The position numbers and the translations under genes are program-made. A stretch of DNA of 26,783 nt from a virus. Numbering within the stretch: the stretch's first letter is position 1; each line of letters opens with the position of its first letter. The notes below the pieces were generated by a model. That model worked only from the letters and a program-made list of their open reading frames with translations. It did no database searches and was not told the DNA's origin. This document shows, one piece after another, positions 54-26,383 of this stretch. The stretch is taken from the IMG/VR virus record IMGVR_UViG_3300018481_000730, positions 1 through 26,783 of that record. One strand, given 5' to 3'.

Positions 54-1556
54 TTGCGGAAGGCTGCCCGTTGCAGTTTCGAGTCAGTCAACAGTGGCGG
101 GCGCGTGGAATTTGACGCCTCTTTTGAAGACGCGGTTCTGAGCGAGTCGCTGCGCAACGAGTCGTTCTTGAAGCGGGCCGCTCGTGTGTGCCAGCAACAT
201 CACTTTGCGACGAAAGAGCGGGCGTGGTTGTGGACGGTCATTCATGAGAATTGGACGAAGTATCACGAACGAACGTCGGGCAAGATCGTTGCTTCGCGCG
301 CTCGACGCGACTTCGACAAGGTCGAGAAGCGGCGCCCCTATCTGCTACTCGCGAGAAAGGTGTTTCGGACCCGCGCGAAAGACCCGCAAGCGGTGCTCGA
401 AGAGCTCGAACGCTTCGTGCGACACGTCGGAGTTCAGCTGGCGATCGAAGAGTCGGCTACCTTGCTCGAAAAGGGCAAGATCGACGAGGCCGAGAAGGCC
501 ATCGCGAAGGCGTCGCGAAGTGTCACGCGTCAGCGTAACTACACGCACATTCGATGGATCGAAGAGTTCAAGGATCGCCAAGCTCAGCGCAAGTACGAGC
601 GCGAGCACCCCGACGAGTTCACGACGATTCCGCTCGGGTTCCCGCGCATTGACAAGACGCTTTCAGGGGGCGGGCGCAAGGGCGAACTTGCGTTGATCAT
701 GGGCACGACGGGCCGTGGAAAGTCGATTTTTCTGACCAATAGCGCGCAAGCATGCGTCGCGCGGGGATACAGGGCGATCTACTTCGGCTTCGAAATGCCT
801 GCCCGGCAAATTGCCGCGCGTCAAGACTCACGTTGGACGGGGCTTCAATACCAGAAGTTCAAGGGCTACGACTTCAAGCCGAGCGAGCTTCGGGCCATTC
901 GGGCGCGCATGAAGAAGGCCCGAAAACAGTTTCGCAATCGTCTGCATATCGTGTCGATGCCCGTGCGGTCGGCGACGATTCAGGATGTGCGCAACGCGAT
1001 CGAAGACATCCGACAGGATCATGGCTTCGAGGCCGATGCCATCTTTCTCGACAGCGCCGATCACCTTCGCGCGCTCGAAGCCTACGGCGGCAACTTCCGG
1101 CTTCAGCAAGCCGAAGTGTATTGGGCCGCCAAGGAGCTCGCCGAAGAAGACGGCTATTTCGTCATGAGCTCGACGCACGCAGGGCGCGAGTGGGCGACCA
1201 AGGTCGCGACCGCTGAAGCGACCTCCGAGGCATACGACAAGAGCCGGATCGCAGATATGGTGATGTCGATCAACGATCCGGCCGAGATGAAGCGCAAGGG
1301 TCGAAAGACCGTGCTAGCGGACGACGACGACTTCGACGACGACGGTGACGAGATTGGCGAGCCTGTCGTGAAGGAAGGCGCGCGCCTGATGGAACTCTAT
1401 CTTGGGAAGTATCGTGACGGCGACTCGCGCTTCATGGTGAACGTCGAGTGTGACTTCGCATGTATGACCATGAAGGAAGTGAAGGAAGGCGGTCAAGATG
1501 ACGATGACGATGACGACGACGAGCGAGACGACGAAGACGAGCTCGACGACGACTGA
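54..1556 (+). CDS. dnaB: DnaB-like replicative DNA helicase with acidic tail
   Basis: Predicted hexameric 5'-3' replicative helicase that would unwind the phage fork and work with the primase two genes downstream. Visible in the 500-residue product: an N-terminal helical region (about 20-170), then a RecA-type core with Walker A GTTGRGKS (217-224), a Walker B-like FLDS (331-334) and a late IADMVMSIN segment typical of DnaB. Two Asp-rich patches follow (422-432 and 481-500), the second forming the extreme C terminus, which is unusual for DnaB. The TTG start at 54 follows a GGGGA (38-42) and an in-frame TAG at 36-38; GTG at 105 is a plausible alternative because the family-like sequence begins there, though 54-104 already shows G/C wobble bias. 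The last 59 bases overlap the methyltransferase gene in another frame. Family call is firm; exact start is not. Confidence 0.9.
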   Translation: MRKAARCSFESVNSGGRVEFDASFEDAVLSESLRNESFLKRAARVCQQHHFATKERAWLWTVIHENWTKYHERTSGKIVASRARRDFDKVEKRRPYLLLARKVFRTRAKDPQAVLEELERFVRHVGVQLAIEESATLLEKGKIDEAEKAIAKASRSVTRQRNYTHIRWIEEFKDRQAQRKYEREHPDEFTTIPLGFPRIDKTLSGGGRKGELALIMGTTGRGKSIFLTNSAQACVARGYRAIYFGFEMPARQIAARQDSRWTGLQYQKFKGYDFKPSELRAIRARMKKARKQFRNRLHIVSMPVRSATIQDVRNAIEDIRQDHGFEADAIFLDSADHLRALEAYGGNFRLQQAEVYWAAKELAEEDGYFVMSSTHAGREWATKVATAEATSEAYDKSRIADMVMSINDPAEMKRKGRKTVLADDDDFDDDGDEIGEPVVKEGARLMELYLGKYRDGDSRFMVNVECDFACMTMKEVKEGGQDDDDDDDDERDDEDELDDD

Positions 1557-2361
1557 CGCGCTTCGTTGGCGCTGGGATTGCGCTTCAGACTGGATTGCGA
1601 CGGTCGACGCGCGCGCGCTCGTGTTCAAGTGCGACGCGTTCGAGGCCATGCGTCTTATGCCCGACGGCGTTGTCGATCTGGTCGTGACCGACCCGCCCTA
1701 TGCGTCGCTAGAAAAGCACCGAGACAGCAAGGCGCGGATTCGGAAGTACGAGCGCGAGAAGGCCGCGGGCGAGCTGACAGGAACGCGCATTCCGCGCCTG
1801 CGCGATTGGTTTCCGATCATGCCCAACGAACGCTTCCCGGAGCTCTTGGCCGAGCTTTACCGGGTCATGGCGCCTGATTCGCATCTATACATTTTCGCCG
1901 ACGACGACACGAGCGATGTCATCCGGGCCGCGGTCGCGGCGATGGCCAAGGAGCGGGGCAAGGACTCGTTCACATGGTGGAAGCGTATCGTCTGGGATAA
2001 GTTGCATCGCGGGCAGGGCTACCACTACCCCAATCAGCACGAGTTCGTCGTGTTCCTGGAAAAGGGGAAGCGGAAGCTGAATCTGCATGCGCACACGTCG
2101 GTGCTCGCGTGTAAGCGAGTGTCGAAGACGTCGCTCGGAGGTCGAGCGCCCGGGCCGACCGAGAAGCCGGTCAGCTTGATCGCGAAGTTGATCGACAACA
2201 GCTCGAAGCCTGACGACCTCGTCTTTGACCCGTTCTGTGGTCGAGGCGCGACGGGCGTGGCGGCCGTCTTCGCGGGCCGTCAGTTTCTCGGCTTCGACGT
2301 TCAGCGGCGGGCCGTGCGGATCACGCGTGCGCGTCTACGTGAAGTCGAAACGGTGACCTAG
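1498..2361 (+). CDS. DNA methyltransferase, beta-class (DPPY)
   Basis: Predicted S-adenosylmethionine-dependent DNA amino-methyltransferase, most likely N6-adenine because the catalytic motif is DPPY (65-68). The order is catalytic motif first, then a C-terminal SAM-binding block: TEKPVSLIAKL (221-231) followed by VFDPFCGRGATG (242-253). This is the beta-class circular order. No restriction endonuclease is adjacent, so it may be an orphan that protects phage DNA or marks it. ATG 1498 has a strong Shine-Dalgarno sequence, AAGGAAGG at 1482-1489, eight bases upstream, which decides the start even though it lies inside the helicase gene. Because the GAC-rich helicase tail is read one frame over, the first 20 residues are almost all Thr, Met and Ser and are probably disordered. 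GTG 1621 is an alternative start without a visible ribosome site. The target sequence cannot be predicted. Confidence 0.9.
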   Translation: MTMTMTTTSETTKTSSTTTDALRWRWDCASDWIATVDARALVFKCDAFEAMRLMPDGVVDLVVTDPPYASLEKHRDSKARIRKYEREKAAGELTGTRIPRLRDWFPIMPNERFPELLAELYRVMAPDSHLYIFADDDTSDVIRAAVAAMAKERGKDSFTWWKRIVWDKLHRGQGYHYPNQHEFVVFLEKGKRKLNLHAHTSVLACKRVSKTSLGGRAPGPTEKPVSLIAKLIDNSSKPDDLVFDPFCGRGATGVAAVFAGRQFLGFDVQRRAVRITRARLREVETVT

Positions 2362-3407
2362 TGCGGTTCGACATTGAAGATTACGTCGAAGGCAACCTGA
2401 CGAAGGTCAAGACTGTACAAGCCGGCAACGGCAACGAGATGACGGCGGTTTGTCCGGCCTGCGATCGATACGGCGGGTTCTACATCAACACAGAGACGGG
2501 CGCCTATGTGTGTTGGAAGTGCGACTTTCGCGCGCACACGGTCGTCGGCTTGGTGGCTCAGGTCGAGGGCATCACGTGGAGCGAGGCGCGCGGGTTCATT
2601 TTCACGCGTTCGGTCAAGCTTCGGCGGAAGCAAGACGTGTTCTCGCTGGCTGATCGGGTGCGGGCGCTCAGGCCGCACGCAATCGTCGAAGACGAGGCGA
2701 CCCCGAACGTCAACGTCGACCTGCCCGACTATTACGTTCAGATATACGACCCGAAGCGCGATCCCGTGTGGCAGGTGCCGCGCTACCTGAAAGAACGCGG
2801 CGTGAAGGCGCGCACGGCGCGCGCGTGGGGCCTTGGGTACTGTCGGAAGGGCAAGTACGGCGACCGGCTGATCATCCCGATTGACTGCCCGGCTGGCGTC
2901 TCATGGACGGCGCGCGCGATGTCTGACGATGTATTCGGACCCAAGTATCTGAATCCGCCCGGGGCAGATCATCGGCGCTTGCTGATCGGCTGGCACGTGT
3001 CTCGGGTGACGGGTGACATCGTGCTCTGTGAAGGTCCGCTCGACGCTGTGCGCCTGTATCAGCACGACCTTCCGGCGCTGGCGCTCGGAGGCAAGGAGCT
3101 ACACGACGAACAGCTCGACATGTTGCGCGCGCTTCCGCCAAGGGCCGCGGTGACGGTCATGCTCGACCCCGAAGAAGAGCTCGCACCGTATAAACTAGCT
3201 GAACGGCTAGCGCTGCATTTCGAGGCCATCTACGTCGCCAAGTTGCCCGCCAAGACCGCCGACGGCCGGAAGCTCGACCCGGGCGAGTCGACCCGGGAAC
3301 AGGCCCACAAGGCCGTTGACGAGGCCGTCTTGTGGACGTCATCGCGGGCGCCGCGCACGGCGGCCTTGATAAGGCAAGCGCGAAAAGCCTGGCAGAAAAG
3401 ACTGTAG
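2361..3407 (+). CDS. DnaG-like primase, zinc ribbon plus TOPRIM
   Basis: Predicted DNA primase laying RNA primers for the phage fork. The 348-residue product has an N-terminal zinc ribbon, CPAC (31-34) and CWKC (51-54), the usual template-recognition module. A central region follows (RYLKERGV, about 141-148; RLIIPI, about 169-174), then a TOPRIM fold with catalytic-type CEGPLDA (223-229) and LDP (268-270). It is shorter than bacterial DnaG (about 580 residues) and lacks an obvious C-terminal helicase-interaction domain, as is common for phage primases. The GTG start shares one base with the methyltransferase stop (TAGTG), implying translational coupling. The helicase-methyltransferase-primase order supports a fork role. 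The family could also be described as a TOPRIM primase-like protein; activity is inferred from motifs. Confidence 0.88.
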   Translation: MRFDIEDYVEGNLTKVKTVQAGNGNEMTAVCPACDRYGGFYINTETGAYVCWKCDFRAHTVVGLVAQVEGITWSEARGFIFTRSVKLRRKQDVFSLADRVRALRPHAIVEDEATPNVNVDLPDYYVQIYDPKRDPVWQVPRYLKERGVKARTARAWGLGYCRKGKYGDRLIIPIDCPAGVSWTARAMSDDVFGPKYLNPPGADHRRLLIGWHVSRVTGDIVLCEGPLDAVRLYQHDLPALALGGKELHDEQLDMLRALPPRAAVTVMLDPEEELAPYKLAERLALHFEAIYVAKLPAKTADGRKLDPGESTREQAHKAVDEAVLWTSSRAPRTAALIRQARKAWQKRL

Positions 3408-3620: not shown

Positions 3621-4730
3621 ATGGGAAGCGCACGCCAGCGACACGACGATCGCGGTCGTGAGAAGGTGCAGTGTCGCGATTGCTCGCTGTGGTATCACCG
3701 GCTCGACCTGCACATCGTCTCGCGACACGAGGGGATCGAGCCCTATCGCGTGCGACATCCGGGCGCACCGTTGTTGTCTGAGACGGCGCGACGGAAGGTG
3801 GCTTCGTCGCCCGACGATCGCGCGTTCAAGTTCGGCGTCGCTCGGATGGCCATGCGCGAGTGCGACGAGTACGATCAGCGCTTCGTTCCGATTCACGATG
3901 ACGATTGGACGCTCGGGGAGGTCGAGCGGGAAGCGCTCGACGCGCTGGCGCTGGCCATCGAAGACGACGAAAACGTCCTAATTGTAGGACCGCCCGGGGT
4001 CGGCAAGTCGACGCTCGTCAAGGAGCTTGCGGCGATCACGAACAGCCCCTTGCGACGGCTACCGTTTCGGGGCGACATGCGTGTCAGCGACCTCGTCGGC
4101 GCAAAGACGCTTTCGGTCGACGCGGCGACGGGTCAGTCGGTGACGCAATACGAGCGCGGCCTTTTGCCCGATTCGGCGACGCGGGGTCACTGGTTGTTGG
4201 TCGACGAAATCGACGCGGGGCCGCCCGAAGTGATGTTTACGCTCTTTCCGGTCCTGGAAGCCGATCGGTCGCTCGTGCTGACCTCGGATCGCGGCGGGCA
4301 GGAAGTGACTTTCGATCCGCGGTTTCGCTTCATCGCCACGGCGAACACGTTGGGATGGGGCGACGAGTCGGGGCTGTATGCGGGCACGGCGCCGATGAAC
4401 GAGGCGCTTCTTGATCGCTTTCACACGGTGATAAACCTCACCTACCCCGACAACGACAGCGAGGTGCGACGGCTCGTTCAGGCGTCGGGTATCGCTCTCG
4501 CTACCGCTGAAAAGATGGTCGCGGCGGCGACCAAGATTCGCGAAGCGCAGCAACGCGACGCGATGACTTCGAGCTTTTCGCCCCGACGGCTGGTCATGTG
4601 GGCGAAGAAGGCCGCGCGCATGGGCGACCCTGCCCGGGCCGCCCGCTACACGGTGACGAATCGCCTACCCGTCGAAGAGAGCGCTTTCGTCTCGGGCATC
4701 ATTCAGCGCCACTTCGGCGGCGGCGTATGA
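3621..4730 (+). CDS. CobS-like MoxR-family AAA+ ATPase with N-terminal zinc finger
   Basis: Predicted AAA+ ATPase of the MoxR/CobS group, which partners VWA proteins in metal insertion or protein remodelling. In the 369-residue product, Walker A is GPPGVGKS (123-130), Walker B LLVDEID (192-198), sensor 1 TAN (240-242), arginine finger LLDRF (263-267) and sensor 2 SPRRL (320-324). Residues 18-36 form a Cys2His2 cluster (C18, C21, H31, H36) followed by a GIEPYRVRHPGAPLLSE-type stretch resembling the MucR/Ros zinc-finger fold. The CobT-like gene follows with an ATGA overlap, supporting a two-protein complex. No CobN-like large chelatase subunit is present, so cobalt chelation is unlikely; a phage-specific remodelling job is more plausible but unproven. 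AAGGA lies at 3604-3608, 12 bases before the ATG. Confidence 0.85.
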   Translation: MGSARQRHDDRGREKVQCRDCSLWYHRLDLHIVSRHEGIEPYRVRHPGAPLLSETARRKVASSPDDRAFKFGVARMAMRECDEYDQRFVPIHDDDWTLGEVEREALDALALAIEDDENVLIVGPPGVGKSTLVKELAAITNSPLRRLPFRGDMRVSDLVGAKTLSVDAATGQSVTQYERGLLPDSATRGHWLLVDEIDAGPPEVMFTLFPVLEADRSLVLTSDRGGQEVTFDPRFRFIATANTLGWGDESGLYAGTAPMNEALLDRFHTVINLTYPDNDSEVRRLVQASGIALATAEKMVAAATKIREAQQRDAMTSSFSPRRLVMWAKKAARMGDPARAARYTVTNRLPVEESAFVSGIIQRHFGGGV

Positions 4731-6490
4731 GCCGGGTTTGTGTCGAGTTGTTGGGCCTCGCTGGCCCGTTCACGCGTATTGCGCGGGCGATGTCGTCGGA
4801 GTGGAACGTGCGGATCGTTCCGACGGGCACGAAGTGCGACACTGACGGCGAAGTTATTCGGATTCCGTTCACCGCCGATTATCTGCCCCTTGAAGCGCGA
4901 CAGTTGCTGCATGGCATGCTTGATCATGAAGTGTGTCACGTGTCGGAAGAGCGCCGACACAGGCAGGCGTTCCGAACGACCCCGGTCGAGACGTTGCGCG
5001 CCGAAACTGACCGGCGCGTTCAGCTGCTTTTGAACGTGGCCGAAGACGTGCGGATCGAGAAGCGCTACAGCGCACAATATGTCGGCGTCGCGCAGAATCT
5101 CGCGGCGTTGAACCTGCAAGCCGCAAGCGAATGGGCCGAGAAGCACGACGCGGGATGGTGGTTGTCGTTCGGGGCCGCGCTGATCCTGCGCGCGCACGGG
5201 CTTGACGCTTCGTGGGCTGACGCTGAATTCGGCGAGTATCTGACCTTGTGTGAACCCGAGCTCGCGTGCATGCGCGGGGGCGTCGGCGAATGGTGCGATG
5301 CGTCGCTCGACGTCGCGAAGCGCATTTTCGAGAAGGTGAAGCATCGGCACGAAGAAAAACAACGCGAGAAACAAAGCGGAAAACAACGCGAGAAACAAAG
5401 CGGAAAACAACGCGAGAAACAAAGCGAAACTGACGGCCCGGAAGATCCCGAGCCAGATGGTGAAGCGGGCGGTGAGCGGGCGCCTGTCGATGACGCTGGA
5501 TCGATCGACATGCTCGTCGAGATCCGGGTCGGGCTCGAAAAGCATGTGATCCGCGATGCGACCTTGAATCGTCGGTATATCCCGCACCCGAAGGCGCATG
5601 CGCTCGACGCGGTCGTGTCGGTGATCGGCAACATGGCGGTATACGCTGGCGCGCGTGCCGAAGTGTTGGCACAGATCCGCGTTCTAAGGCAGAAGCAACG
5701 CGCGCTCGTGTCGGCTTGGGCTCGTAGGCGTGTTCGCCCGGGTCTCGAACGCGGCGACGTTGACGAGCACGTTCTTGCCGATGTGCGAGTCGGCGCAACT
5801 GACTTGTTCGCTGAGTTGACGCGCAAGCGTTACCTAAACACGGCGATCACCGGGCTCGTCGATTGCTCGGGGTCGATGGGCGATAACCAGATGTTGGGTA
5901 ACGGGGCGTATTACGCGCTGCGAACGGCGATTGCACTTGCTGAGTCGTGGTCGGCGCTCGGTATCGCGAATGAATGGCTCGGTTTCACGGCGCAGGATTT
6001 TGTGCCGACGGGTATCACGGTCGACGATCTCTCGGGCCCGTATTTCTGTCGACCGCCGCTTCATCATTTCGTCTTCAAGGCGTTCGGTGACTCGATCCGT
6101 GAGTCGCGGGCGGCGTTCGGCGGCATTCGGGGCATAGGTAGTAACGTCGACGGCGAAGCCGTCATGTGGGCCTGGCAACGGCTCGTCGTCCGTCGTGAAG
6201 CGCGGAAGATTCTTGTCGTCATCTGTGACGGCCAACCCGCCACATGGAACGGGTGCGCCGATCAGCAAGAGTATGCCGACGAGGGCGCCTTGCATGCGCA
6301 TCTTCGCGATGTCGTTCGCATGGTGACGAAGTCGGGCGTCGAGGTCATCTGTATCGGCGCGGGCACCGACGACCCTGCACAGTTTTTCAACGCCGACACC
6401 GGCGCGAAGTTCGTTCACGTGCGCAGCGTGTCGACGCTGGCGCTCGACGTGTTCCGAATCATGAAGCAACGCGTAACCGATCTGACATAG
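4727..6490 (+). CDS. CobT-like protein, HExxH motif plus VWA domain
   Basis: Predicted partner of the upstream AAA+ ATPase. The 587-residue product starts with a metallopeptidase-like region containing HEVCH (57-61) and a later NVAEDVRIE segment (103-111) that could give the third metal ligand. A charged linker follows (about 205-250) with three copies of an eight-residue Lys/Gln repeat, then a VWA domain with a complete MIDAS DCSGS (379-383). SNVDGEAVMWAWQRL (472-486) and ILVVICDG (495-502) closely match the C-terminal pattern of aerobic cobaltochelatase subunit CobT. The start was set at ATG 4727 because it overlaps the CobS-like stop as ATGA; a 43-codon longer reading frame exists but lies inside the upstream gene. 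Whether the HExxH site cleaves peptides is unknown. Family similarity is strong; the function in a phage is not established. Confidence 0.82.
   Translation: MSRVCVELLGLAGPFTRIARAMSSEWNVRIVPTGTKCDTDGEVIRIPFTADYLPLEARQLLHGMLDHEVCHVSEERRHRQAFRTTPVETLRAETDRRVQLLLNVAEDVRIEKRYSAQYVGVAQNLAALNLQAASEWAEKHDAGWWLSFGAALILRAHGLDASWADAEFGEYLTLCEPELACMRGGVGEWCDASLDVAKRIFEKVKHRHEEKQREKQSGKQREKQSGKQREKQSETDGPEDPEPDGEAGGERAPVDDAGSIDMLVEIRVGLEKHVIRDATLNRRYIPHPKAHALDAVVSVIGNMAVYAGARAEVLAQIRVLRQKQRALVSAWARRRVRPGLERGDVDEHVLADVRVGATDLFAELTRKRYLNTAITGLVDCSGSMGDNQMLGNGAYYALRTAIALAESWSALGIANEWLGFTAQDFVPTGITVDDLSGPYFCRPPLHHFVFKAFGDSIRESRAAFGGIRGIGSNVDGEAVMWAWQRLVVRREARKILVVICDGQPATWNGCADQQEYADEGALHAHLRDVVRMVTKSGVEVICIGAGTDDPAQFFNADTGAKFVHVRSVSTLALDVFRIMKQRVTDLT
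5354..5425 (+). repeat. 24-bp tandem repeat, three copies, inside the CobT-like gene
   Basis: Three head-to-tail 24-base units at 5354-5377, 5378-5401 and 5402-5425, the second and third identical and the first differing at one base. They keep the reading frame and encode EKQREKQS then GKQREKQS twice. A-rich composition contrasts with the surrounding GC-rich gene. The array sits exactly in the linker between the HExxH and VWA domains, so copy-number change would alter linker length without destroying either domain. Confidence 0.9.
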
Positions 6491-6503: not shown

Positions 6504-7211
6504 ATGGACGACCATCACGACGCAATTTACAAAGCGGTTGAAGTGATGGTGCGGCCGATCCTTCAGTCGAACGCACGGAAGTTCGCGCGACAGCTCGGCA
6601 TGTCCTATGCCGAAGCGATCCAAGAAGCGCGCTTCGGGCTCTTGCTCGCGTTGCGAAAATACGACTACAACGACAGTCGTGGCGGGATTTTCAACTTCGC
6701 GAAGATTGCGGTGCGCAGGCACTTTTTGAAGGTGTGGGCAGTGCAACGGGCACAGGCGCGGCGGCCGCACGTGTTCGTCGTCGCGGAAGACGGCAAGCGA
6801 AAGACGCTTTCGTTGCCATTCGTGGAACCGAGCACGACTCAGCCGGTCAGCGACTTCATGGATTCCTTCGAGGGGACGCTCAGCGCGCCCGATGCGCCGC
6901 TCGTCGAGGCCGATGCGAACCAGACGGCGACGGCGTTTCAAACGGCGCTTGAAGGCGAGCTCAGCGAGCGCGATCGACAGGTGCTTCGCTGCAAGTTCGA
7001 TCCGCCCCGGGGCCTGCGAATGCTCATGCTCGACGAACTTGCCGACGAGCCGACGATTCCGCTGATCGGCCGATATTTGGGCCTGTCGAAGAACGAGGTC
7101 GATTGGGCCGTTCGGCGCATTCGGGACGCGGCGATCGAGCTGATTGGGCGCGATTTCAGCGACCTGACCGACCTCGCGATAGTTCGGGCGTATGTGGAAA
7201 GGCGGCCGTGA
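6504..7211 (+). CDS. Divergent sigma-70-like factor
   Basis: Probable phage transcription initiation factor. The 235-residue product has a region resembling sigma region 2: AEAIQEARFGLLLALRKYD (36-54), followed by FNFAKIAVRRHFLKVW (63-78), which parallels the core-binding and -10-recognition helices. A C-terminal segment, LSERDRQVLRCKF (153-165) through LGLSKNEVDWAVRRIRDAA (192-210), resembles region 4 with its helix-turn-helix. The middle is not recognisable. ATG 6504 follows the CobT-like stop by 13 bases with a GGGG upstream, and the gene ends in a GTGA overlap with its neighbour. It could recognise the phage promoters that share TTGAAGC. An alternative is a sigma-like DNA-binding protein that no longer binds RNA polymerase. 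Confidence 0.65.
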   Translation: MDDHHDAIYKAVEVMVRPILQSNARKFARQLGMSYAEAIQEARFGLLLALRKYDYNDSRGGIFNFAKIAVRRHFLKVWAVQRAQARRPHVFVVAEDGKRKTLSLPFVEPSTTQPVSDFMDSFEGTLSAPDAPLVEADANQTATAFQTALEGELSERDRQVLRCKFDPPRGLRMLMLDELADEPTIPLIGRYLGLSKNEVDWAVRRIRDAAIELIGRDFSDLTDLAIVRAYVERRP

Positions 7212-8581
7212 CGGAAAAGACGGTTGACTACGGGCGAAAACTGCCCGTGTGCTTGCGAAAATACGATCGGGGTAACCCCGAGTGTGACGGTCGTGCGCGC
7301 GCTCGCACGCCTGAAGAGCGCATGCCCTGTGTCTATCGTGATCGCTGTGTCGCTCTTCAGCGCTTGGTTCGTGTGAAGGGATACAAGGCGCGCGATCTTC
7401 TGAAGCTTCGGAAGGTGCGCGATGTGGACGGCAAGCGCCGCGTGTATGCGTTCGCGATGGGCGAGAGCGAGGCGTTTCAACAATGGCTCACAAGGGCGAT
7501 CGATCGCTACGGGATCCGAAACGGGCGAATCACGATTGCACATCCTGACGAAGACGGCGGGTCGCCGAAGCCGCGCAAGATTCGGAATCGAAGCGACGAG
7601 TCGAAGAAGAAGAGCGCTGTGGCGCTTGTGAAGGCGCGTCAGTTCGCGACGCGGGCCTTGCGCGAGAAGGCGCGCGAAGACCTCGAAGCGACGCTCTTGC
7701 TCCTGCAATGGTTTGTTTCGCGGCTTCAGCGGGCGACACATCGTGAGCTTGCCGCGAATCAAGCGACGGCGGAAGACGGTCAACTCTTTCTGATCGATCG
7801 GGTCGAGTCGTCGCGCTATGTCACGCTGTATGTGAAGGTCGTGAAGCGCGCTTCGAGCAACAACCGAAAGCGGATTTCGAGGCGACCGATCGCGTGCATC
7901 ATTCTCGCCGTGCGGACTCACAGCTTACAGTTCCGATTTCCCTTTGGTCGGGAAGAACTGGAATCCTTCTTGCCGGCGCCAGCGGTGAAAAAGATTGCGC
8001 CCGCCGACTTCGTCGAGGGGCGGTATCGGTCGCGCACCTGTCAGCTCGGGAAGGAAGGCGCTTCGATCGTCGCAGAAGCGATCGCCCGGGCTATCAACCG
8101 AGGCACGGTCGAGGCGCGTGAAGACCTCGACGCGACGCGCTTGCTGGTCGACTTGTTCGTGTCGCGCGTGAAGCGAGCGACGGGGCGTGAGTTCGCGACC
8201 GACCGAGCGAGCGCAAAAGACGGTCAACTCTTTCTGATCGATCGCGCAGAGTCGGCGCGCTACGTCACGCTGTGCGCAAAGGTCACGCAACGAGACACAG
8301 ACGATCACCGAAAGCGGATTTCGAGGCGGCCGATCGCGCGTATCATTCTCGCTGCTCATGCTCATAGTCTACAGTTCTGTTTCCCGTTCGACCGCGACAC
8401 GCTGGAATCGCTCTTGCCCGCACACGGTGCGAAGGCGCTTTCGCCGGCTGACCTCGTCGAAGGTCGGTATCTGTCGCGGACATGTCAGGTCGGGAAGGAA
8501 GGCGTTTCAGTTGTCGCGGAAGTGATCGCGCGGGCCATCGGCAAGGGCGCAATTCGCATACCCAAGGCCCTTACGTCATAG
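7208..8581 (+). CDS. Unknown protein: Cys4 head and duplicated 148-residue domain
   Basis: Not recognised as a named family. The start is GTG 7208, overlapping the previous stop as GTGA; a longer frame back to 7103 falls inside the sigma-like gene. The 457-residue product has an N-terminal Cys cluster (C15, C26, C41, C47) that could bind zinc or an iron-sulfur cluster. A basic, Ser/Lys/Arg-rich linker follows (about 117-150), then two tandem copies of one domain (157-304 and 305-452). Both copies contain GQLFLIDR, RKRISRRPIA, a short Phe-rich FPF motif, and GRY-SRTCQ-GKEG. High Arg/Lys content suggests nucleic-acid binding, but this is inference. No catalytic motif is evident. The position between a sigma-like and a flavoprotein-like gene gives no decisive clue. 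Confidence 0.75.
   Translation: MTEKTVDYGRKLPVCLRKYDRGNPECDGRARARTPEERMPCVYRDRCVALQRLVRVKGYKARDLLKLRKVRDVDGKRRVYAFAMGESEAFQQWLTRAIDRYGIRNGRITIAHPDEDGGSPKPRKIRNRSDESKKKSAVALVKARQFATRALREKAREDLEATLLLLQWFVSRLQRATHRELAANQATAEDGQLFLIDRVESSRYVTLYVKVVKRASSNNRKRISRRPIACIILAVRTHSLQFRFPFGREELESFLPAPAVKKIAPADFVEGRYRSRTCQLGKEGASIVAEAIARAINRGTVEAREDLDATRLLVDLFVSRVKRATGREFATDRASAKDGQLFLIDRAESARYVTLCAKVTQRDTDDHRKRISRRPIARIILAAHAHSLQFCFPFDRDTLESLLPAHGAKALSPADLVEGRYLSRTCQVGKEGVSVVAEVIARAIGKGAIRIPKALTS
7676..8563 (+). repeat. 444-bp in-frame tandem duplication
   Basis: Two adjacent copies, about 7676-8119 and 8120-8563, offset by exactly 444 bases (148 codons). Long stretches remain nearly identical in DNA, for example around AGACGGTCAACTCTTTCTGA at about 7779 and 8219. 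Other parts have diverged, mostly without frame changes. This fits a gene-internal duplication that has been kept under selection for protein function. Confidence 0.85.
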
Positions 8582-9497: not shown

Positions 9498-9795
9498 CGA
9501 GCTTCGGAGGTGGGCGCGAGGCGAGCCGGTCGAAGGGCTTCCGCCGGTCAGCCTGATCAAGGAGGTCGAGCGGCCAAGACTCGTTCCTATGCGCTCGACA
9601 GGGAAGTATCGAATCAACGCTGACGGTACCGATGCGCTGCTTCAGTTCGGTAGGTTTCGGGGCCATACGCTGTCGAAGCTCGTGATGACGGCGCGCGGGC
9701 GAAAGTATCTTCACTGGATCCTCGACAAGGATTTCGACGAAAATCTAAAGGAGGTGTGTCGATACACCTTGGAGGCGCACAAGCGTGTCAAGTAA
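9484..9795 (+). CDS. Small DUF3820-like protein
   Basis: A 103-residue product. The segment LQFGRFRGHTLSKLV followed by GRKYLHWILDKDFDENLKEV matches the FGK-x-G-x-T-L ... YL-W-L ... F pattern of DUF3820. That domain often sits alone in phages or at the end of DnaQ-type exonucleases. No exonuclease catalytic residues are present here, so it is probably a stand-alone accessory to the polymerase that follows with an 11-base overlap. ATG 9484 is preceded by GAGGGGAT (9472-9479) and was chosen over the longer frame from 9451. Role inferred only from context. Confidence 0.65.
   Translation: MPTLDELRRWARGEPVEGLPPVSLIKEVERPRLVPMRSTGKYRINADGTDALLQFGRFRGHTLSKLVMTARGRKYLHWILDKDFDENLKEVCRYTLEAHKRVK
9747..9775 (+). 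promoter_or_regulatory. Strong SD-like sequence in a small hairpin ahead of dnaE
   Basis: AAAGGAGGTG (9747-9756) is an almost perfect anti-SD complement, but no start codon in the dnaE frame lies at a useful distance. Part of it pairs in a small hairpin: AGGTGT (9752-9757), loop GTCGAT, ACACCT (9764-9769). A second, open GGAGG (9771-9775) lies nine bases before the dnaE GTG at 9785 and is the likely true ribosome site. The arrangement may stall or load ribosomes for coupled translation. Confidence 0.4.
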
Positions 9796-12700
9796 CTCTG
9801 AATCCTTCGTTCACATGCACACGCATAGCGACATGTCGCAGCTCGACGGTTGTGGCTTGATTGGCGACTACGTCGCAGAAGCGAAGGCGCGTGGAAATCC
9901 GGCGCTCGCGTTCACCGAGCACGGGTCGATGCGCGGCTACTTACAGCTTCGAAAGGAAGCCGAGAAGGCGGGTATCAAGCCGATCTACGGGATCGAGTTC
10001 TACGTGTCGCGCGACATGCACCGGAAGGGAATCACCGATGAAGAGAAGGCGGCGTTGCTCGTCGGGGTGAAGAAGAACGATCGGCGACGAACGTTGAAGG
10101 CGTTCGAAGAGCGCGAAGGGATTCGCGACCGTTGGCACACGACATGCTGGGCGCTCACACAAGAGGGCATGTTGAATCTGCAACGGCTCTCTTCGGCGGC
10201 GTTCGTCGACGGGTTCTACTACAAGCCCCGAGTCGACCTGAACGCGCTGTGCGAATACAGCGAAGGCTTGGCGCTCTCGACCGGATGTATGAACGGGCCG
10301 GCGCACGACAGCTTTTTGCAGGGGCGCAGGCGCGACGCGCTGAACTTCGTCGATCGTCTTCACGAAGCATACGGCGATCGGCTGTATCTGGAAATTCAGC
10401 CGCATGCGATCAAGGATCAGGCGCGCGTAAACGAGTTCGAGCTGACGCTTCGTGACCGCACGGGCGCGAAGCTTCTGGCCACGCAAGACGCGCATTACGT
10501 GCGACCCGAAGACAGTCAGGCGCACGATGTGCTTCTGTGTATCGGCACAGGGGCGAAGCTCAGTGACGAAGACCGTTTTCGGTTCGACGGCGACGAGTTC
10601 TATTTTCGAACACGTGCGCAGATGCGCGACGCGTTCGTGCGACATCATGGGTATCTGCGCAAGTCGCACATCAAGGAAGCGCTCGACTCGACGGTCGAGC
10701 TTGCGTCGCGAAGCGACGTCAAGATTGAAATCGACTACCTGCGCGCCCTGTTGCCGACGCCCGGCATGCCGAAGAAGTATGACGGCGACGAATTTCGGTT
10801 CTTGAAGGATCTGTGCCTCGACGGTTGGACGTGGCGGGCCATTCCTGCCCGTGCGCGGGCCTACGCTCGGAAGCACGGCGTGGGGTCGGGCGATGCGCTC
10901 GGGCGCTATGCGGAGCGCTTGAAGGTCGAGCTCGCGGCGCTGAAGCGCCAGCGCTTGATCCTGTATTTCTTGGTCGTGCGCGACCTGTATACGTTTGCGC
11001 GCAAGGAAGAAATCTTCTGTGGGCCGGGCCGTGGAAGCGCGGGCGGTTCTCTCGTGTCCTACCTGCTAGGTATCACGTCGATCGATCCGATCGAGCATGG
11101 TCTTCTGTTCGAGCGCTTCATCAACCCCGATCGCCATGACTTGCCCGACATCGACATGGATTTCGAGGATTCGCGGCGACGCGAGGTGATCGAATACCTT
11201 GTGCGCAAGTACGGGAAAGACAAGGTCTGTCAGATTGCGACGGTCGGTCGGCTGTCGGGCAAGAGTGTCTTGCGGGATGTATCGCGCGTGGTTGGCGTGC
11301 CGCTGTCGGAGGTGACCGCGATCAGTCCGTCGATCTTGGAGCGACCCGACGGGCACCCGCGCGAGTTTCGAACGCTCGAAGACAGCTTTGACGAGTTCGA
11401 AGCGTGCCGGGCCTTCGACAAGCGCTACCCGGCGGTGAGGCGCTATGCGACCAAGCTCGAAGGTATGGCCAAGACGCTTGGTATCCATGCCGCGGGCGTG
11501 GTCGTGAGTCCAGTCACGCTGACGAATCTCATTCCACTAGAGATCCGGAAGCACAAGGGCGAAGACGTCGTCGTCAGCGCGATCGACATGAACGAAATCG
11601 CGTCGGTTGGGCTTGTGAAGCTCGACGTGCTTGGCCTGCGCACGCTGACGGTGATCCGCGACTGTGTGCGCGCGGTGAAGGAACGGCACGACGTCGCGCT
11701 CGACATGGAACGGATCGAGATGAACGACCCGAAGGTGCTCGACCGTTTTACAGCACACGACTTCGCGGGCGTGTTTCAGTACGACACCGCGGGCGCCTAC
11801 AAGATATGCCAAGACGTCGTTTTCGAAGACTTCGAAGACATCGCGGCGATGACCGCTCTAAATCGCCCGGGCGCGACGCGGTCGGGTCTGGCCGAGCGGT
11901 ATCTCGTGCGCAAGAAAGACGCGCGCAAACGGGCCGCGGTCGACTTTCACCCGATCATCAATGCTATCTGCGCCGATACGCTCGGGGTCATCGTCTATCA
12001 AGAGCACGTGATCAAGATTTTCACAGACCTCGCCGGCTTCTCGCCGGGGGTCGCTGACAGCTTGCGGAAGGCCATCGGCAAGAAGAAGGCCGAAGAGCTG
12101 AAGGCCGCGCGCGCTGACTTCGTGGCGGGTTGTGGGGCCCTGCATGGCGTCGCCCCGAAGCTCGCCGGCAAGATTTTCGGAGCGATCGAGGCGTTCGGCG
12201 CCTACGGCTTCAACAAGTCGCATGCGACCGCCTACGCGACGATCGCCTATTGGTGCCAATTCCTGAAGGTGTATCACCCGACCGAATTCTATTGGGCGCT
12301 TCTTCGGAACGAGCCGGATCGGGCGCGACTGAAGGCGCTGGCCAAGGAAGCGAAGAAGGCGGGCATGCAGATACTAAGCCCGCACGTGTCGTTCAGTCGT
12401 GACGTCTTCAGTATCGACCCCGACGGCAACATTCGCGGGTCGTTGGTCGACATCAGGGGTGTCGGTAAGGGCGCCGCGGCAACGGTCATGCAATGCCAAC
12501 CGTTCAAGAGCTTTCTCGACTTTGCTCAGCGTGTAGACCGGCGCCGCTGCAATCGCGGCGTGGTTGTCGCGCTGATCCAGGCCGGCGCTTTCGAAGGCTT
12601 GATACCAAATCAGCGCTTCTTCGAAGAGCATCTTGACGAGCTGTGGCGAAGCTTCACGAAGAAGCGCCAGCGACGCGAAGCGATCTATGACTTTTGGGAA

Positions 12701-13594
12701 CGGGCGAAGAAGGCGCCAGACCACACACCCGAAGAGCGTATGCTCGTCGCGGGGAAGGTGAACCCGCTGGCGTTCGGCGATCACCCGCTCGACGCTTACC
12801 GGGGCTTTATGGCCGACCATGTCGGCGTTCCGCTGACGAGGATCGACGCGCAAGCGTTGCAAGACCTCGACGGCGAGTCGGTGTATGTGGCCGGGCTCTT
12901 GCTCGACGCGCGGGTTCAACAGATCGGCGACTTCCACACGGGCGAGCTTCCGACCGAGCGCGAGCGGGCGCGCATGTTTTGGGGCGCTCGCTATGCGAAT
13001 GTGAATGTCGAGCTCGACAGCGGTGAAGCGTTCCGGATCCGCTTCGATTTCCCGATTTTCGAGGCACATCGCGATCTGATAGGGGCCGACGCAGGAACGC
13101 CGATGATCGTTCACGCGACGGTCGACGCGAAGTACAACCGGCTGATTGCGCATTTCGCGATCGACTTGGAGCGCTACCGCGTGGCAGTGCGTCGGGGCGA
13201 CGAAAGCGACTTTTGGGGGCGTATCGTCGCGGGCGAACATCCTGCCCGCGATTATGCGTGGCCGACGCCTGAGATTGGCAAGAAGCGCCGCTTCAACCGG
13301 CGCTTTCTTCGCTCGGGGAATGGGGTGTTTACTGGCGTCGTGACGCATGTGCGGCGGAAGTTTGACGTTCGCGGGGAAGAAATGGCGTTCTTCGGCCTTC
13401 TTGGCGAGAAGGGATACGTCAACGTGGTCGTGTTCGCGTCGTCGTGGAGTTCGGCGCGAAAGGTCATCAAGCGAGGTCGTCTCTTGTCGATGCCTCTTGA
13501 AAAGACTAGCGATCCCGAACGGGGAGTATCGATTTTCTTCAACGGCGGAAAAGTTAGGCACCTCAATTCAGCGAACTGGGCCCCAAGCCCGTAG
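9785..13594 (+). CDS. dnaE: DNA polymerase III alpha subunit (DnaE type)
   Basis: Main replicative polymerase, C-family, 1269 residues (bacterial DnaE is about 1160). It opens with a PHP domain: FVHMHTHSDMSQLDG (8-22), FTEHGSM, KPIYGIEFYV, STGCMNG and ATQDAHYVRPED, in canonical order. The palm carries PDIDMDF with Asp455 and Asp457 and a third Asp614 in VKLDVLGL, matching the E. coli catalytic triad. HAAGVVVSP and FNKSHATAYATIAYWCQFLK are also conserved. Near the C terminus, FTGVVTHVRRKF looks like an OB fold. PHP metal ligands appear intact (H10, H12 among them), unlike E. coli DnaE, so intrinsic proofreading is possible; no DnaQ gene is in the window. The GTG start overlaps the preceding gene by 11 bases. 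Confidence 0.95.
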   Translation: MSSNSESFVHMHTHSDMSQLDGCGLIGDYVAEAKARGNPALAFTEHGSMRGYLQLRKEAEKAGIKPIYGIEFYVSRDMHRKGITDEEKAALLVGVKKNDRRRTLKAFEEREGIRDRWHTTCWALTQEGMLNLQRLSSAAFVDGFYYKPRVDLNALCEYSEGLALSTGCMNGPAHDSFLQGRRRDALNFVDRLHEAYGDRLYLEIQPHAIKDQARVNEFELTLRDRTGAKLLATQDAHYVRPEDSQAHDVLLCIGTGAKLSDEDRFRFDGDEFYFRTRAQMRDAFVRHHGYLRKSHIKEALDSTVELASRSDVKIEIDYLRALLPTPGMPKKYDGDEFRFLKDLCLDGWTWRAIPARARAYARKHGVGSGDALGRYAERLKVELAALKRQRLILYFLVVRDLYTFARKEEIFCGPGRGSAGGSLVSYLLGITSIDPIEHGLLFERFINPDRHDLPDIDMDFEDSRRREVIEYLVRKYGKDKVCQIATVGRLSGKSVLRDVSRVVGVPLSEVTAISPSILERPDGHPREFRTLEDSFDEFEACRAFDKRYPAVRRYATKLEGMAKTLGIHAAGVVVSPVTLTNLIPLEIRKHKGEDVVVSAIDMNEIASVGLVKLDVLGLRTLTVIRDCVRAVKERHDVALDMERIEMNDPKVLDRFTAHDFAGVFQYDTAGAYKICQDVVFEDFEDIAAMTALNRPGATRSGLAERYLVRKKDARKRAAVDFHPIINAICADTLGVIVYQEHVIKIFTDLAGFSPGVADSLRKAIGKKKAEELKAARADFVAGCGALHGVAPKLAGKIFGAIEAFGAYGFNKSHATAYATIAYWCQFLKVYHPTEFYWALLRNEPDRARLKALAKEAKKAGMQILSPHVSFSRDVFSIDPDGNIRGSLVDIRGVGKGAAATVMQCQPFKSFLDFAQRVDRRRCNRGVVVALIQAGAFEGLIPNQRFFEEHLDELWRSFTKKRQRREAIYDFWERAKKAPDHTPEERMLVAGKVNPLAFGDHPLDAYRGFMADHVGVPLTRIDAQALQDLDGESVYVAGLLLDARVQQIGDFHTGELPTERERARMFWGARYANVNVELDSGEAFRIRFDFPIFEAHRDLIGADAGTPMIVHATVDAKYNRLIAHFAIDLERYRVAVRRGDESDFWGRIVAGEHPARDYAWPTPEIGKKRRFNRRFLRSGNGVFTGVVTHVRRKFDVRGEEMAFFGLLGEKGYVNVVVFASSWSSARKVIKRGRLLSMPLEKTSDPERGVSIFFNGGKVRHLNSANWAPSP

Positions 13595-21441: not shown

Positions 21442-22350
21442 ATGAAGGCCACGATCGTCGACGGCAAGAACTTACTTTGGCGCAATGCCGATGCGTTCAG
21501 TGAGCTGACCGCGCACGTCGACGGCGAAGAGATTCGCACGGGCGGCATGTACGGGTTCGTCGCGGGCCTCTTGCGCATTCGGTCGCGCTACCGCGCACCG
21601 ATTATCGTGGCATGGGAAGGCAGCAACAATTTTCGCCTGAAGCTGTGGCCGGAATACAAGCGCAAGCGCACCGAACAGGCGACGCCAGCACAGGAAGAGT
21701 TGTCGCGCGAGGTCGTCGCGAGCGAAGGCCGACTGAACGAGCTTCTGTCGCACGCTGGCGTGCGCCAATACTACGGGGTCGGGTGCGAGGCCGACGACGT
21801 GATCGCGACGCTGGCGTTCGCGTTGCAGAGAAACGGCGTGAAGGTGACCGTCTACACTGGCGACTCCGACTTGCGTCAGCTTGCCGGGCCCGGTATCACG
21901 ATTGTTTCACCGGGCTTTCGAAGCGCGGGCGATACCATCTACGATGCGCCGGCTGTCTTGCGTCGCTATGGCGTGCGACCTCGTGACCTGCCTGTGATGA
22001 AGGCGCTCGGGGGCGACAGTAGCGACGGGATCCCGGGCTTGCCCGGGATCGGCGAGAAGACGGCGGCGGCGCTGGTCGCGCGGTTTCGGACGATTGCGAA
22101 GATCGTCGAGTGCTCGCGGGCGAATGATGACATGTGGCCGGTCGCTGAGCGCTTCCGGGCGGTTGTTCAGCGCGACGCAGACAAGGCCGAGTTGTTCTTG
22201 CGCCTGACGACGGTGAAGAACGACGTGCGCGTGCGCCCGGTGCCGGTGTCGTTTGATCGAGACGAGGTGATCCGTCTACTTCGGGTGTACAAATTTCGAA
22301 GCTTGTCGAGCGCGGCCGAGCTCCTTGAAATTCTGAGGCTAGGGCAGTGA
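21442..22350 (+). CDS. FEN-type 5'-3' exonuclease (Pol I N-domain-like)
   Basis: Predicted flap endonuclease/5' exonuclease removing RNA primers and flaps during lagging-strand synthesis. The 302-residue product has Asp7 in IVDGKNLL, a WPEYKRKR basic segment (69-76), EADDVIATLA (116-125), TGDSDLRQL (139-147) and a helix-3-turn-helix GDSSDGIPGLPGIGEKTAAAL (191-211). This is the acidic-cluster arrangement of the family. No polymerase domain follows, which is normal for phage versions such as T5 D15. ATG 21442 is preceded by GGCGGG within the previous gene, and the stop overlaps the glycosylase start as GTGA. Confidence 0.92.
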   Translation: MKATIVDGKNLLWRNADAFSELTAHVDGEEIRTGGMYGFVAGLLRIRSRYRAPIIVAWEGSNNFRLKLWPEYKRKRTEQATPAQEELSREVVASEGRLNELLSHAGVRQYYGVGCEADDVIATLAFALQRNGVKVTVYTGDSDLRQLAGPGITIVSPGFRSAGDTIYDAPAVLRRYGVRPRDLPVMKALGGDSSDGIPGLPGIGEKTAAALVARFRTIAKIVECSRANDDMWPVAERFRAVVQRDADKAELFLRLTTVKNDVRVRPVPVSFDRDEVIRLLRVYKFRSLSSAAELLEILRLGQ

Positions 22351-22949
22351 GCGAAGTTGATGCCAAGCGAAAGAGGCTCGAACAGCTCTCGCTGTCGTGG
22401 CGCAGCTGTACCGATTGCGCGCTGTCTCATTCGCGGTCGCGGGTCGTGTTCTATCGCGGCAACCCTGACGCTCGTATGGCCATCGTCGGCGATGCGCCCG
22501 GGCGCGAAGAAGACGTGCGCGGGGTGCCGTTCGTCGGGCCGGCTGGCAAGTTGCTTGACGGGCTTTTGGTCGAGGCGAAAGTTTCTTTCGACGATGTGTG
22601 CTTTGTAAACATGGTCGGTTGTCGGGCGCCAGCGGGTCGCATGCCGAAGCGTGACGAGCTCGCGGCGTGTCGACCTCGAACGCTCGACATGCTTCGGACG
22701 GTCAACCCTGTCGTCGTGCTCATGCTCGGGCTGACGGCCGCTGCGAAGCTCGCGGGGGTCACGTCGATCGGGCCGTGGCGAGGCATGCCAGTTGCGGTCG
22801 AGCTTGGCTTGCAACGGTCGTGCCGCGGGGTCGTGACTTATCACCCTTCGTTCTTGCTGCGACAGAGTAACAGCCCGAAGGTCCGTCGGTGCATGTTGTC
22901 TGACATCAGGGTTGCGCGAGCTATTTCGAGAAAGGATCGAGCCGAGTGA
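22347..22949 (+). CDS. Uracil-DNA glycosylase, family 4/5-like
   Basis: Predicted glycosylase removing uracil from DNA. The 200-residue product has motif GDAPGREEDVRGVPFVGPAG (48-67), which is GEAPG in most family-4 enzymes. Four cysteines, C21, C24, C92 and C108, fit the iron-sulfur cluster, and YHPSFLLRQ (165-173) supplies the His of motif B. The start is GTG 22347, overlapping the exonuclease stop; the end overlaps the next start as GTGA. The neighbouring dCTP deaminase-like gene produces dUTP, so the two likely form a uracil-handling pair. A repair or a nuclease-like role against uracil-containing DNA are both possible. Confidence 0.85.
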   Translation: MSEVDAKRKRLEQLSLSWRSCTDCALSHSRSRVVFYRGNPDARMAIVGDAPGREEDVRGVPFVGPAGKLLDGLLVEAKVSFDDVCFVNMVGCRAPAGRMPKRDELAACRPRTLDMLRTVNPVVVLMLGLTAAAKLAGVTSIGPWRGMPVAVELGLQRSCRGVVTYHPSFLLRQSNSPKVRRCMLSDIRVARAISRKDRAE

Positions 22950-23509
22950 CTTACTCTGACCTCGACATTCAAGACGCACTTCGGCGCGAGCCGAGCGTGT
23001 GCCACAACTGGATCCGGGTCGAGCCGGTCGAGCCGTGGCAATTTCAACCGGCCTCGATCGATCTGCGACTCGGGGCTGACTTCGTGCGGTTCCGGTCGAC
23101 CGCTTTCGTCGACATGCGCGACCGTGTCGTACCGAGCTATCACGAGAACGTCGGCACGAATCGTGACAGCTATCTCGAACTGAAGTCGGGCGAGCTCGTG
23201 CTCGGGACGACGATCGAGCGGGTGCATCTTGGACGCGGTGTGTGGGCGAGTCTTGAAGGGAAAAGTAGCATCGGGCGCATGGGTCTTGCGGTGCATGTCA
23301 CCGCCGGCTTCGTCGACCCCGGCTTTGTCGGACAACTGACGTTAGAGCTGTTCAACATCTCGCCAAGCCCGATTCGCTTGCGGCCGACGATGCCGATCTG
23401 TCAGCTCGCGTTCGGCGAGTGTGTGCGACCTGCGAATCGGCCGTATGGTTCATGCGGCCTTGGTAGTCGGTATCAACATCAGACCGGCGCGACCCCGGTT
23501 CGATTGTGA
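22946..23509 (+). CDS. dcd: dCTP deaminase / dUTPase-superfamily enzyme
   Basis: Predicted nucleotide enzyme of the Dcd/dUTPase fold, 187 residues, converting dCTP to dUTP and possibly on to dUMP for thymidylate synthesis. Motifs: QPASIDLRLG (34-43), EGKSSIGRMGL (104-114), AGFVDPGFVGQLTLELFN (120-137) with the catalytic-type Glu134, and RYQHQTGATP near the end. These match dCTP deaminases more than dUTPases. Whether it is mono- or bifunctional cannot be told by eye. GTG 22946 overlaps the glycosylase stop, and the stop overlaps the next GTG. No thymidylate synthase gene is in the window. Confidence 0.88.
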   Translation: MTYSDLDIQDALRREPSVCHNWIRVEPVEPWQFQPASIDLRLGADFVRFRSTAFVDMRDRVVPSYHENVGTNRDSYLELKSGELVLGTTIERVHLGRGVWASLEGKSSIGRMGLAVHVTAGFVDPGFVGQLTLELFNISPSPIRLRPTMPICQLAFGECVRPANRPYGSCGLGSRYQHQTGATPVRL

Positions 23510-25540: not shown

Positions 25541-26383
25541 ATGCCCGTGAAACGCGCGACCCTATTGCGGTTCGAGCCTGAAGCGCTCGTGATCATCGGC
25601 TTCGACACGAAAGACGGCCCCGAACACGAACTGTGGGATGAACGCATCAAGCTACCGCTCGACGAACCCATGATTCTGAACATCATGGCTGTCGGCGTGA
25701 AGGAATCGATCACCGTTCGGAAGGGCGGAAAGGGCTACGAAGTTGTGAACGGGCGGCGGCGCGTCTTGCATGCCCGAGAAGCGAATAGGCGGCTGAAGAA
25801 ACAAGGTGAACCTCTTGTGCGTGTGCCGGCGCTTTCCGAGTCGGGCGACGACGTCTACATGGGGAAGCTTGCCATCTCGCTGAATGAGATTCGGCGCGAC
25901 GATGACACGCTGACGAAGGCCGAAAAGTGCATGCGCTTACTACACAGGAACGGCAACGACTACCGTGACGCCGCTGTGGCGTTCGGTGTGTCAGTCGCTG
26001 CGATCCGAACGTGGGCGAAGGTCGCTGAACTGACCCCGAAGGTGAAGCGGGCGGTCGCCGCTGGCGATATCAGTGCTTCGGCGGCGGCCGAACTTCATGG
26101 CATCGAACCGGGACAACAGATCGCGCGGCTCGACAAGCTCGTCGGTCAGGCGAAGGCGACGGGCAGGAAGAAGGCGACGGTCGCGAAGGCGAAGGCGCTT
26201 GCGGGGCGCCGTGTGACGGTTCCGAAACGTGTTTTGCTTCGGCTTGTAGGCGATCGCGCTCTTTCGTCGGGTGTGCCCGCTGAGTTTCTGTCGGGTATCA
26301 AGCTTGCGCTCGGGGCGTACTTACCGCCCGAAACGTCGAAGGTCGGAAAGTTGCTTGTTCAGGCCGGCTTCAAGTATGAGTGA
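25541..26383 (+). CDS. ParB-like DNA-binding protein
   Basis: A 280-residue product with a ParB/sulfiredoxin-fold region containing VVNGRRRVLHAREANRRL (68-85). A helix-turn-helix follows: YRDAAVAFGVSVAAIRTWAKV (141-161), with a further helical segment ISASAAAELHGI. Phage ParB-like proteins act in partition, transcription control or as DNA nucleases. No ParA partner or clear parS site was seen here, so partition is unlikely to be the role on present evidence. AAAGG (25524-25528) precedes ATG 25541. It has its own promoter and leader. Confidence 0.75.
   Translation: MPVKRATLLRFEPEALVIIGFDTKDGPEHELWDERIKLPLDEPMILNIMAVGVKESITVRKGGKGYEVVNGRRRVLHAREANRRLKKQGEPLVRVPALSESGDDVYMGKLAISLNEIRRDDDTLTKAEKCMRLLHRNGNDYRDAAVAFGVSVAAIRTWAKVAELTPKVKRAVAAGDISASAAAELHGIEPGQQIARLDKLVGQAKATGRKKATVAKAKALAGRRVTVPKRVLLRLVGDRALSSGVPAEFLSGIKLALGAYLPPETSKVGKLLVQAGFKYE

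Follow-up and report, generated by a model that had tools for sequence, protein, structure and literature searches.

A CobN-free CobS/CobT-like pair with a predicted metallopeptidase domain in phage and plasmid replication modules

The window, a stretch of 26,783 bases comprising positions 1 to 26,783 of the IMG/VR virus record IMGVR_UViG_3300018481_000730, encodes two adjacent homologs of cobaltochelatase subunits: a CobS-like AAA+ ATPase of the MoxR/CobS/midasin type (369 residues, 3621-4730) and a CobT-like protein (587 residues, 4727-6490) composed of a predicted metallopeptidase N-terminal domain (the N-domain), a linker and a VWA domain with a metal ion-dependent adhesion site (MIDAS). 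The genes and motifs of the pair all lie on the plus strand. We think it probable, if well short of certain, that this pair is a DNA-directed AAA+/VWA remodeling machine that carries a metallopeptidase and acts at replication or replication-coupled transcription, and that it is not a cobaltochelatase. An initial annotation, made from the sequence alone, had placed both open reading frames correctly and had described their Walker A, Walker B, MIDAS and HExxH motifs as complete, which our analysis confirmed.

HExxH and Asp107 separate the viral and plasmid proteins from cellular CobT

The HExxH motif of the window protein reads HEVCH (residues 67-71, 4925..4939) and, from its conservation, is the predicted metal site with E68 as the catalytic glutamate. 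Downstream lies an NxxED..IE motif (N103, D107, E111; 5033..5059) whose D107 is predicted to supply the third metal ligand, given its conservation and its register with phage N4 gp25. When CobT-like proteins of viral contigs, isolated phages and plasmids were placed in one alignment with cellular CobTs, HExxH was kept in 88 of the 92 viral and mobile-element proteins. The count in alignment A4 by itself was set aside as biased, since one scan pattern itself contained HExxH, and conservation was recounted in two ways, among carriers of the VWA search pattern and in this comparison with the cellular CobTs. Of the viral carriers of the VWA pattern whose N terminus is intact, 60 of 62 had HExxH (two cellular entries and one truncated entry being left out of this count). 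The NxxxD aspartate corresponding to D107 was present in all 88 HExxH-bearing proteins.

Both HExxH and D107 were absent from all 83 cellular CobTs sampled (80 found by scanning genomes, for the most part of Rhodobacterales, the rest being Cereibacter, Shinella and Methylobacterium plasmid copies) and from solved CobT (9uka, 21vu). In the cellular proteins H67 is replaced by Ala or Ser, E68 by Leu, Phe or Tyr, H71 mostly by Arg and D107 mostly by Thr, and the scaffold residues G63, D66, E106, E111 and G120 are retained. HExxH had been listed in the initial annotation as one of the motifs that match cobaltochelatase; as cellular and solved CobTs lack it, the motif is instead the feature that separates the window protein from CobT. 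In a tree of VWA domains the sampled cellular CobTs came together in a single clade (support 1.0) that lies within the HExxH-bearing proteins, and the losses of HExxH were scattered. We tentatively read this topology as descent of cellular CobT from HExxH-bearing proteins, the direction being tentative because the root was set at the midpoint and the cellular sample is narrow.

Relatives of the N-domain

The N-domain is homologous to that of CobT: PF06213 was matched by 20 of 24 viral rows (best 7e-19), and a profile of the viral N-domains found solved CobT at 1.2e-5. It also aligned with the metallopeptidase domain of phage N4 gp25 (hhalign 77%, E 2e-5), a comparison in which unrelated controls were null, and the TDG, HExxH and NxxxD motifs of the window N-domain and of N4 gp25 (NYACDIYIN) are in register. 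Two sequence features of a zincin are present, an HExxH with its general-base glutamate (H67, E68, H71) and a downstream candidate for the third ligand, D107. As the fold search with the full-length model was informative on the VWA domain only, the N-domain was folded alone. The resulting AlphaFold2 model had a predicted local distance difference test score (pLDDT) of 94.2, and its nearest structures by VIA-align were ArdC (Z 5.8), jannalysin (4.4), abylysin (4.0) and selecase (3.6). These Z values are individually weak; what counts is the agreement of these metallopeptidase neighbors with the motif. The solved CobT chains 9uka and 21vu, which had been found by sequence, were not among the structures that the fold search returned, its library running to April 2026.

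N4 gp25 itself (L187 2165-3307) has the motifs HELWH and NYACDIYIN plus a MIDAS and follows the AAA+ protein gp24. Relatives of gp25, which were drawn from the phage collection since viral contigs held too few, occur in 642 phage records, where their names include metallopeptidase, often HNH endonuclease, and in one case putative anti-sigma factor. The anti-CRISPR protein AcrIIA26 (PDB 9zq6_B, E 1.3e-4) was also found to match the viral N-domain in its NxxED..IE region, a match that may be due to chance.

The CobS-like ATPase and its N-terminal finger

The CobS-like protein matched AAA_5 (PF07728, 5e-20), PHROG_249 (4e-50) and TIGR01650 (1e-37), and its closest PDB matches were midasin and CobS chains. 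Its AAA+ domain has an intact Walker A (GPPGVGKS, residue 123, 3987..4010), Walker B (LLVDE, residue 192, 4194..4208) and sensor 1 (ATAN, residue 239, 4335..4346). Against the equivalog model TIGR01650 it scored 130 bits and did not reach the cut-off of 558.55.

The initial annotation had also reported a MucR/Ros-like Cys2His2 finger at the N terminus of this protein (C18-x2-C21-x9-H31-x4-H36, 3672..3728), and the finger withstood closer scrutiny. An alignment (A6) of 23 finger-bearing CobS N termini found Ros87 (2jsp) at 3.7e-6, PF05443 (ROS_MUCR) was matched by 16 of the 23 rows, and both cysteines and both histidines are invariant throughout. Judged by these profile matches, the finger is genuinely of the Ros/MucR type. 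It is present in 32 of 42 CobS proteins of fewer than 470 residues. The CobS of cyanophage Syn2 has at the same place a helix-turn-helix-like segment, a weak match (E 0.024). As two different DNA-binding-like modules, the second a weak match, occupy the same position, their sequences suggest that CobS is directed to DNA.

Start, linker and VWA domain of the CobT-like protein

The mechanically called open reading frame of the CobT-like protein begins at a GTG at 4598. The ATG at 4727, which overlaps the stop codon of the CobS gene (ATGA) and gives the protein of 587 residues, is the likelier true start, and the overlap suggests translational coupling. The protein matched CobT_C (PF11775, 5e-19), phrog_1576 (1e-36) and TIGR01651 (2.5e-19), and its N-domain matched PF06213 (1.6e-5). 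Given these expectation values and those of its partner, the homology of the pair to the CobS and CobT families is far beyond chance. Here too the equivalog cut-off (TIGR01651, 759) was not reached, the score being 69 bits.

The AlphaFold2 model of the full-length protein had a mean pLDDT of 85.9, falling below 60 around residues 221-260, the region of a low-complexity KQREKQSG repeat (5353..5430) in the linker between the peptidase and VWA domains. The repeats are encoded by a short DNA tandem repeat of about 24 bases per unit. In the VWA domain the MIDAS residues D379, S381 and S383 are invariant columns (DCSGS, residues 379-383, 5861..5875), and the nearest solved folds were the Rea1-MIDAS/UBL complex (Z 22.0) and NorD (Z 21.4). 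Both of these grip a client in partnership with an AAA+ ring and, on the modeled fold only, they support a remodeling role.

The pair in replication modules of unrelated lineages

By Pfam and PHROG profile matches the whole window is one replication/recombination block, the setting in which the initial annotation had placed the pair. The record, classed by IMG/VR as a virus contig, is probably a fragment. Upstream of the pair lie a DnaB-like helicase (54-1556), a DNA methyltransferase (1498-2361) and a primase (2361-3407), assigned by synteny and by PHROGs 19, 67 and 47, which jointly cover 54..3407. Directly downstream is a sigma-70-like protein (6504-7211; phrog_351, 6e-5), followed at some distance by DNA polymerase III alpha (9785-13594; phrog_405, 3e-288). 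These five genes are likewise on the plus strand. HU-like, UvsX/RecA-like, SbcD, SbcC, RuvC-like and exonuclease genes are also present in the window.

The pair was found in replication modules of several unrelated phage and plasmid lineages, repeatedly beside a sigma-like gene. In the lineage of the window the order is DnaB-(methyltransferase)-primase-CobS-CobT-sigma-PolIIIalpha. In a second lineage, composed of nickie, Rhizobium phages, a Stenotrophomonas phage and phage-plasmids of Acinetobacter, Klebsiella and E. coli, the two genes of the pair have changed places relative to those of the window, and the order is DnaB-primase-ligase-CobT-CobS-(sigma)-PolIIIalpha-exonuclease-RecA. The sigma-like families of these two PolIIIalpha lineages (A7 and A8) are homologous (hhalign 93.6%, E 2e-7). 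In a third group (L048 and L082) a sigma-like gene directly follows CobT. Overall, a sigma-like gene adjoins the pair in 28 of 73 loci. A sigma-like neighbor was considered as a universal partner and rejected, since it is confined to the two PolIIIalpha lineages and the L048/L082 group. The order in cyanophage Syn2 is gp55-gp47-gp46-CobT-CobS-gp45 clamp-clamp loader-RegA, and its CobT carries the motifs HEVGH and NVLEDARIE.

An IncC plasmid (L184 1303-8768) and L021 (3882-5675) hold genes for an AAA+ protein, Bet, lambda exonuclease, a DUF3150 protein and a CobT-like VWA protein with HEAAH, a set that we take to be a recombination module with a plasmid-borne relative of the pair. On the IncC plasmid the genes of the AAA+ and HExxH-VWA proteins lie to either side of those for Bet and lambda exonuclease. 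Within the window, adjacent uracil-DNA glycosylase and dCTP deaminase genes were seen at 22347-23509; a dCTP deaminase gene also follows N4 gp25 (L187). A ParB-like protein with a helix-turn-helix domain is encoded at the end of the fragment (25541-26383). The orphan gene at 7103-8581 gave no significant Pfam or PHROG match and has a long internal tandem duplication, each of its two similar halves holding '...DGQLFLIDR...SRTCQ.GKEG...'.

Proposed mechanism and points against it

In the mechanism that we favor the CobS-like protein would form an AAA+ ring, as expected from its family, and its Ros-like finger would bring the ring to DNA. The VWA/MIDAS domain of the CobT-like protein would grip a client while the ring pulls at the expense of ATP, as fold and family suggest by the examples of NorQ/NorD and Rea1, and the N-domain would then cut the client at the metal site formed by the conserved HExxH and Asp107. 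The conserved gene order points to a site of work at the replication machinery of the phage or in replication-coupled transcription. Leading but unproven candidate clients are the adjacent sigma-like factor, its regulator, and a replisome or RNA polymerase subunit. Position makes the first of these the most attractive; against it, many loci have no sigma-like gene beside the pair. Lineages that lack the peptidase residues would probably keep the remodeling step only. A bolder version, which we hold to be possible rather than probable, is that phage CobST works as a metalloprotease, ATP-dependent and tethered to DNA, at the replication fork or on replication-coupled late transcription with the sigma factor or its regulator as client, and that the cobaltochelatase subunit CobT is a later, catalytically dead derivative of this mobile-element protease.

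Several observations weigh against a replication-linked remodeling protease. Four of the 92 viral and mobile-element proteins, those of nickie, BUCTxx99, pABTJ2 and L082 (loci L010, L013, L015 and L082), lack HExxH and the pair was nevertheless kept. Two of the four also lost the aspartate. Because of these losses, which were probably independent as they are scattered on the tree, peptidase activity is not universal, and some lineages may do without the peptidase step. The initial annotation had named the disappearance of catalytic residues from close relatives as a result that would count against its view, and the outcome was divided: relatives at 38-70% identity retain HExxH, and it is gone from the four just named, of which nickie, BUCTxx99 and pABTJ2 are about 24-29% identical over the VWA part. 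The marine podovirus-like lineages, in which CobS has at least 470 residues, are without the sigma-like neighbor; the Ros finger was found in 0 of 37 of these longer CobS proteins, and a Pfam search of their long N-terminal regions gave nothing convincing. In L063 the pair has terminase and portal genes within a few kilobases, on the opposite strand. Finally, the fold matches of the N-domain all have Z values below 8, under the level that the tool calls safe, and Foldseek found no solved relative of the N-domain and nothing below E 0.85.

CobN and alternative explanations

That the pair comes without CobN, as the initial annotation had it, was borne out by profile searches: CobN (PF02514) was absent from the window and from all 50 related virus, phage and plasmid records with the pair, the host genome not being searched. 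The lack of CobN in the window proves little by itself because the window is a 26.8-kb fragment; 11 of the 50 were searched as entire phage or plasmid records, 45 to 122 kb in length. Among control genomes the CobN profile matched five organisms, and E. coli gave no match. We do not class the pair as a cobaltochelatase, the name under which databases list it and which we regard as misleading, since CobN, equivalog scores and a cellular-type CobT N-domain were each looked for and none was found. In one alternative the proteins are auxiliary metabolic genes, with viral CobST and host CobN forming an active cobaltochelatase that raises cobalamin and feeds B12-dependent ribonucleotide reductase, as proposed for archaeal tailed viruses and phages, where viral CobST is said to borrow host CobN (PMC8651126), and for cyanophages (PMC2984593). 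The proteins are indeed true homologs of CobS and CobT, but both fall far under the equivalog cut-offs, and the proposal gives the conservation of HExxH and D107 no role. E. coli and Klebsiella, and also Acinetobacter, have phages and plasmids that carry the pair, and class II (B12-dependent) ribonucleotide reductase reached the cut-off in only 3 of the 50 records. The absence of CobN from the 50 records, the E. coli and Klebsiella carriers and the rarity of class II reductase together lower this explanation, and we consider it very improbable. The peptidase annotation of cyanophage cobT was called a mistake in PMC8651126; our results suggest that it is closer to the truth. As for the two activities that the initial annotation had offered, client remodeling gained support and metal insertion received no positive support here.

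Another alternative is a pure remodeler that acts like NorQ/NorD or CbbQ/CbbO and may insert a metal in a phage enzyme, with HExxH as a purely structural metal site. The VWA and AAA+ parts closely match NorQ/NorD, and several relatives kept the pair after HExxH was lost. What makes this explanation unlikely is the general-base Glu68, which a structural site would not need and which is kept in all 88 HExxH proteins; the argument is tempered by the retention of Glu68 in the four proteins that lost a His, so that alone it is not decisive. A machine of virion assembly or maturation that processes structural proteins, the role proposed together with proteolysis for the MoxR and metallopeptidase-VWA pair of group 2.2 jumbo phages (PMC7824862), could draw also on the nearby terminase and portal genes of L063. 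We regard it as quite unlikely, for the pair lies inside a replication/recombination block and not among head and tail genes in the window, the PolIIIalpha phages, the phage-plasmids, ICP2 and the T4-like cyanophages, and its relative in the Bet/exonuclease region of the IncC plasmid belongs to an element that makes no virion. A counter-defense protease that destroys or disarms a host defense or restriction protein on DNA is, in our estimate, improbable. It would account for the antirestriction protein ArdC being the closest solved fold to the N-domain, for a spread over phages, phage-plasmids and conjugative IncC plasmids that is typical of defense-related genes, and for catalytic loss in some lineages as targets change. 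However, a fixed position in the replication block across unrelated lineages fits a core process better, as does the status of cobS as a core gene of T4-like cyanophages (PMC3037559), which is not what a patchy arms-race gene would show.

If the pair is a replication-linked remodeling protease, the consequences reach beyond the window. Cyanophage cobS is routinely counted as a vitamin B12 auxiliary metabolic gene, and its role has been stated as uncertain (PMC11288001, PMC2984593). This core gene would then belong to a replication/transcription protease rather than to vitamin synthesis, and much ecological inference on viral B12 metabolism would need correction. CobT would descend from a protein with peptidase and VWA domains and would have become an inactive assembly subunit, and the question would become testable with active-site mutants.

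Comparison with known systems

The aerobic CobN-CobS-CobT enzyme shares with the window pair a homologous CobS AAA+ domain, CobT N-domain and VWA domain. The pair differs in its lack of CobN, its scores below the cut-offs, its added zinc finger, and its HExxH and D107 where cellular CobT has Ala, Leu, Arg and Thr. NorQ/NorD and Rea1/midasin likewise combine an AAA+ ring with a MIDAS/VWA client gripper and provide the best solved VWA folds, but they are without a metallopeptidase domain; the client of NorQ/NorD is nitric oxide reductase and those of Rea1/midasin are pre-60S factors. In T4-like cyanophages CobS (PHROG_249) is again the AAA+ neighbor of an HExxH-VWA protein in a replication block, with an N-terminal helix-turn-helix-like segment in place of the Ros finger. 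Phage N4 gp24/gp25, core genes of the N4-like phages (PMC4193335), show the same succession of an AAA+ protein and an HExxH-NxxxD plus VWA protein, with the N-domains in register, but have no full-length match to the CobS and CobT profiles and no zinc finger. The nearest precedent in architecture comes from group 2.2 jumbo phages (Iyer et al. 2021, PMC7824862), in which the gene of a MoxR-type AAA+ protein adjoins that of a VWA protein whose N-terminal part is a metallopeptidase domain. A virion role was proposed there, whereas here the VWA protein is of the CobT family, CobS bears a Ros finger and the neighbors are replication and sigma genes. We view the window pair as a CobT-family variant of the jumbo-phage MoxR/metallopeptidase-VWA system, set apart by its Ros finger and its place among replication genes: the architecture was already known from jumbo phages, and what is added is the link to CobT, the Ros finger and the replication/sigma setting.

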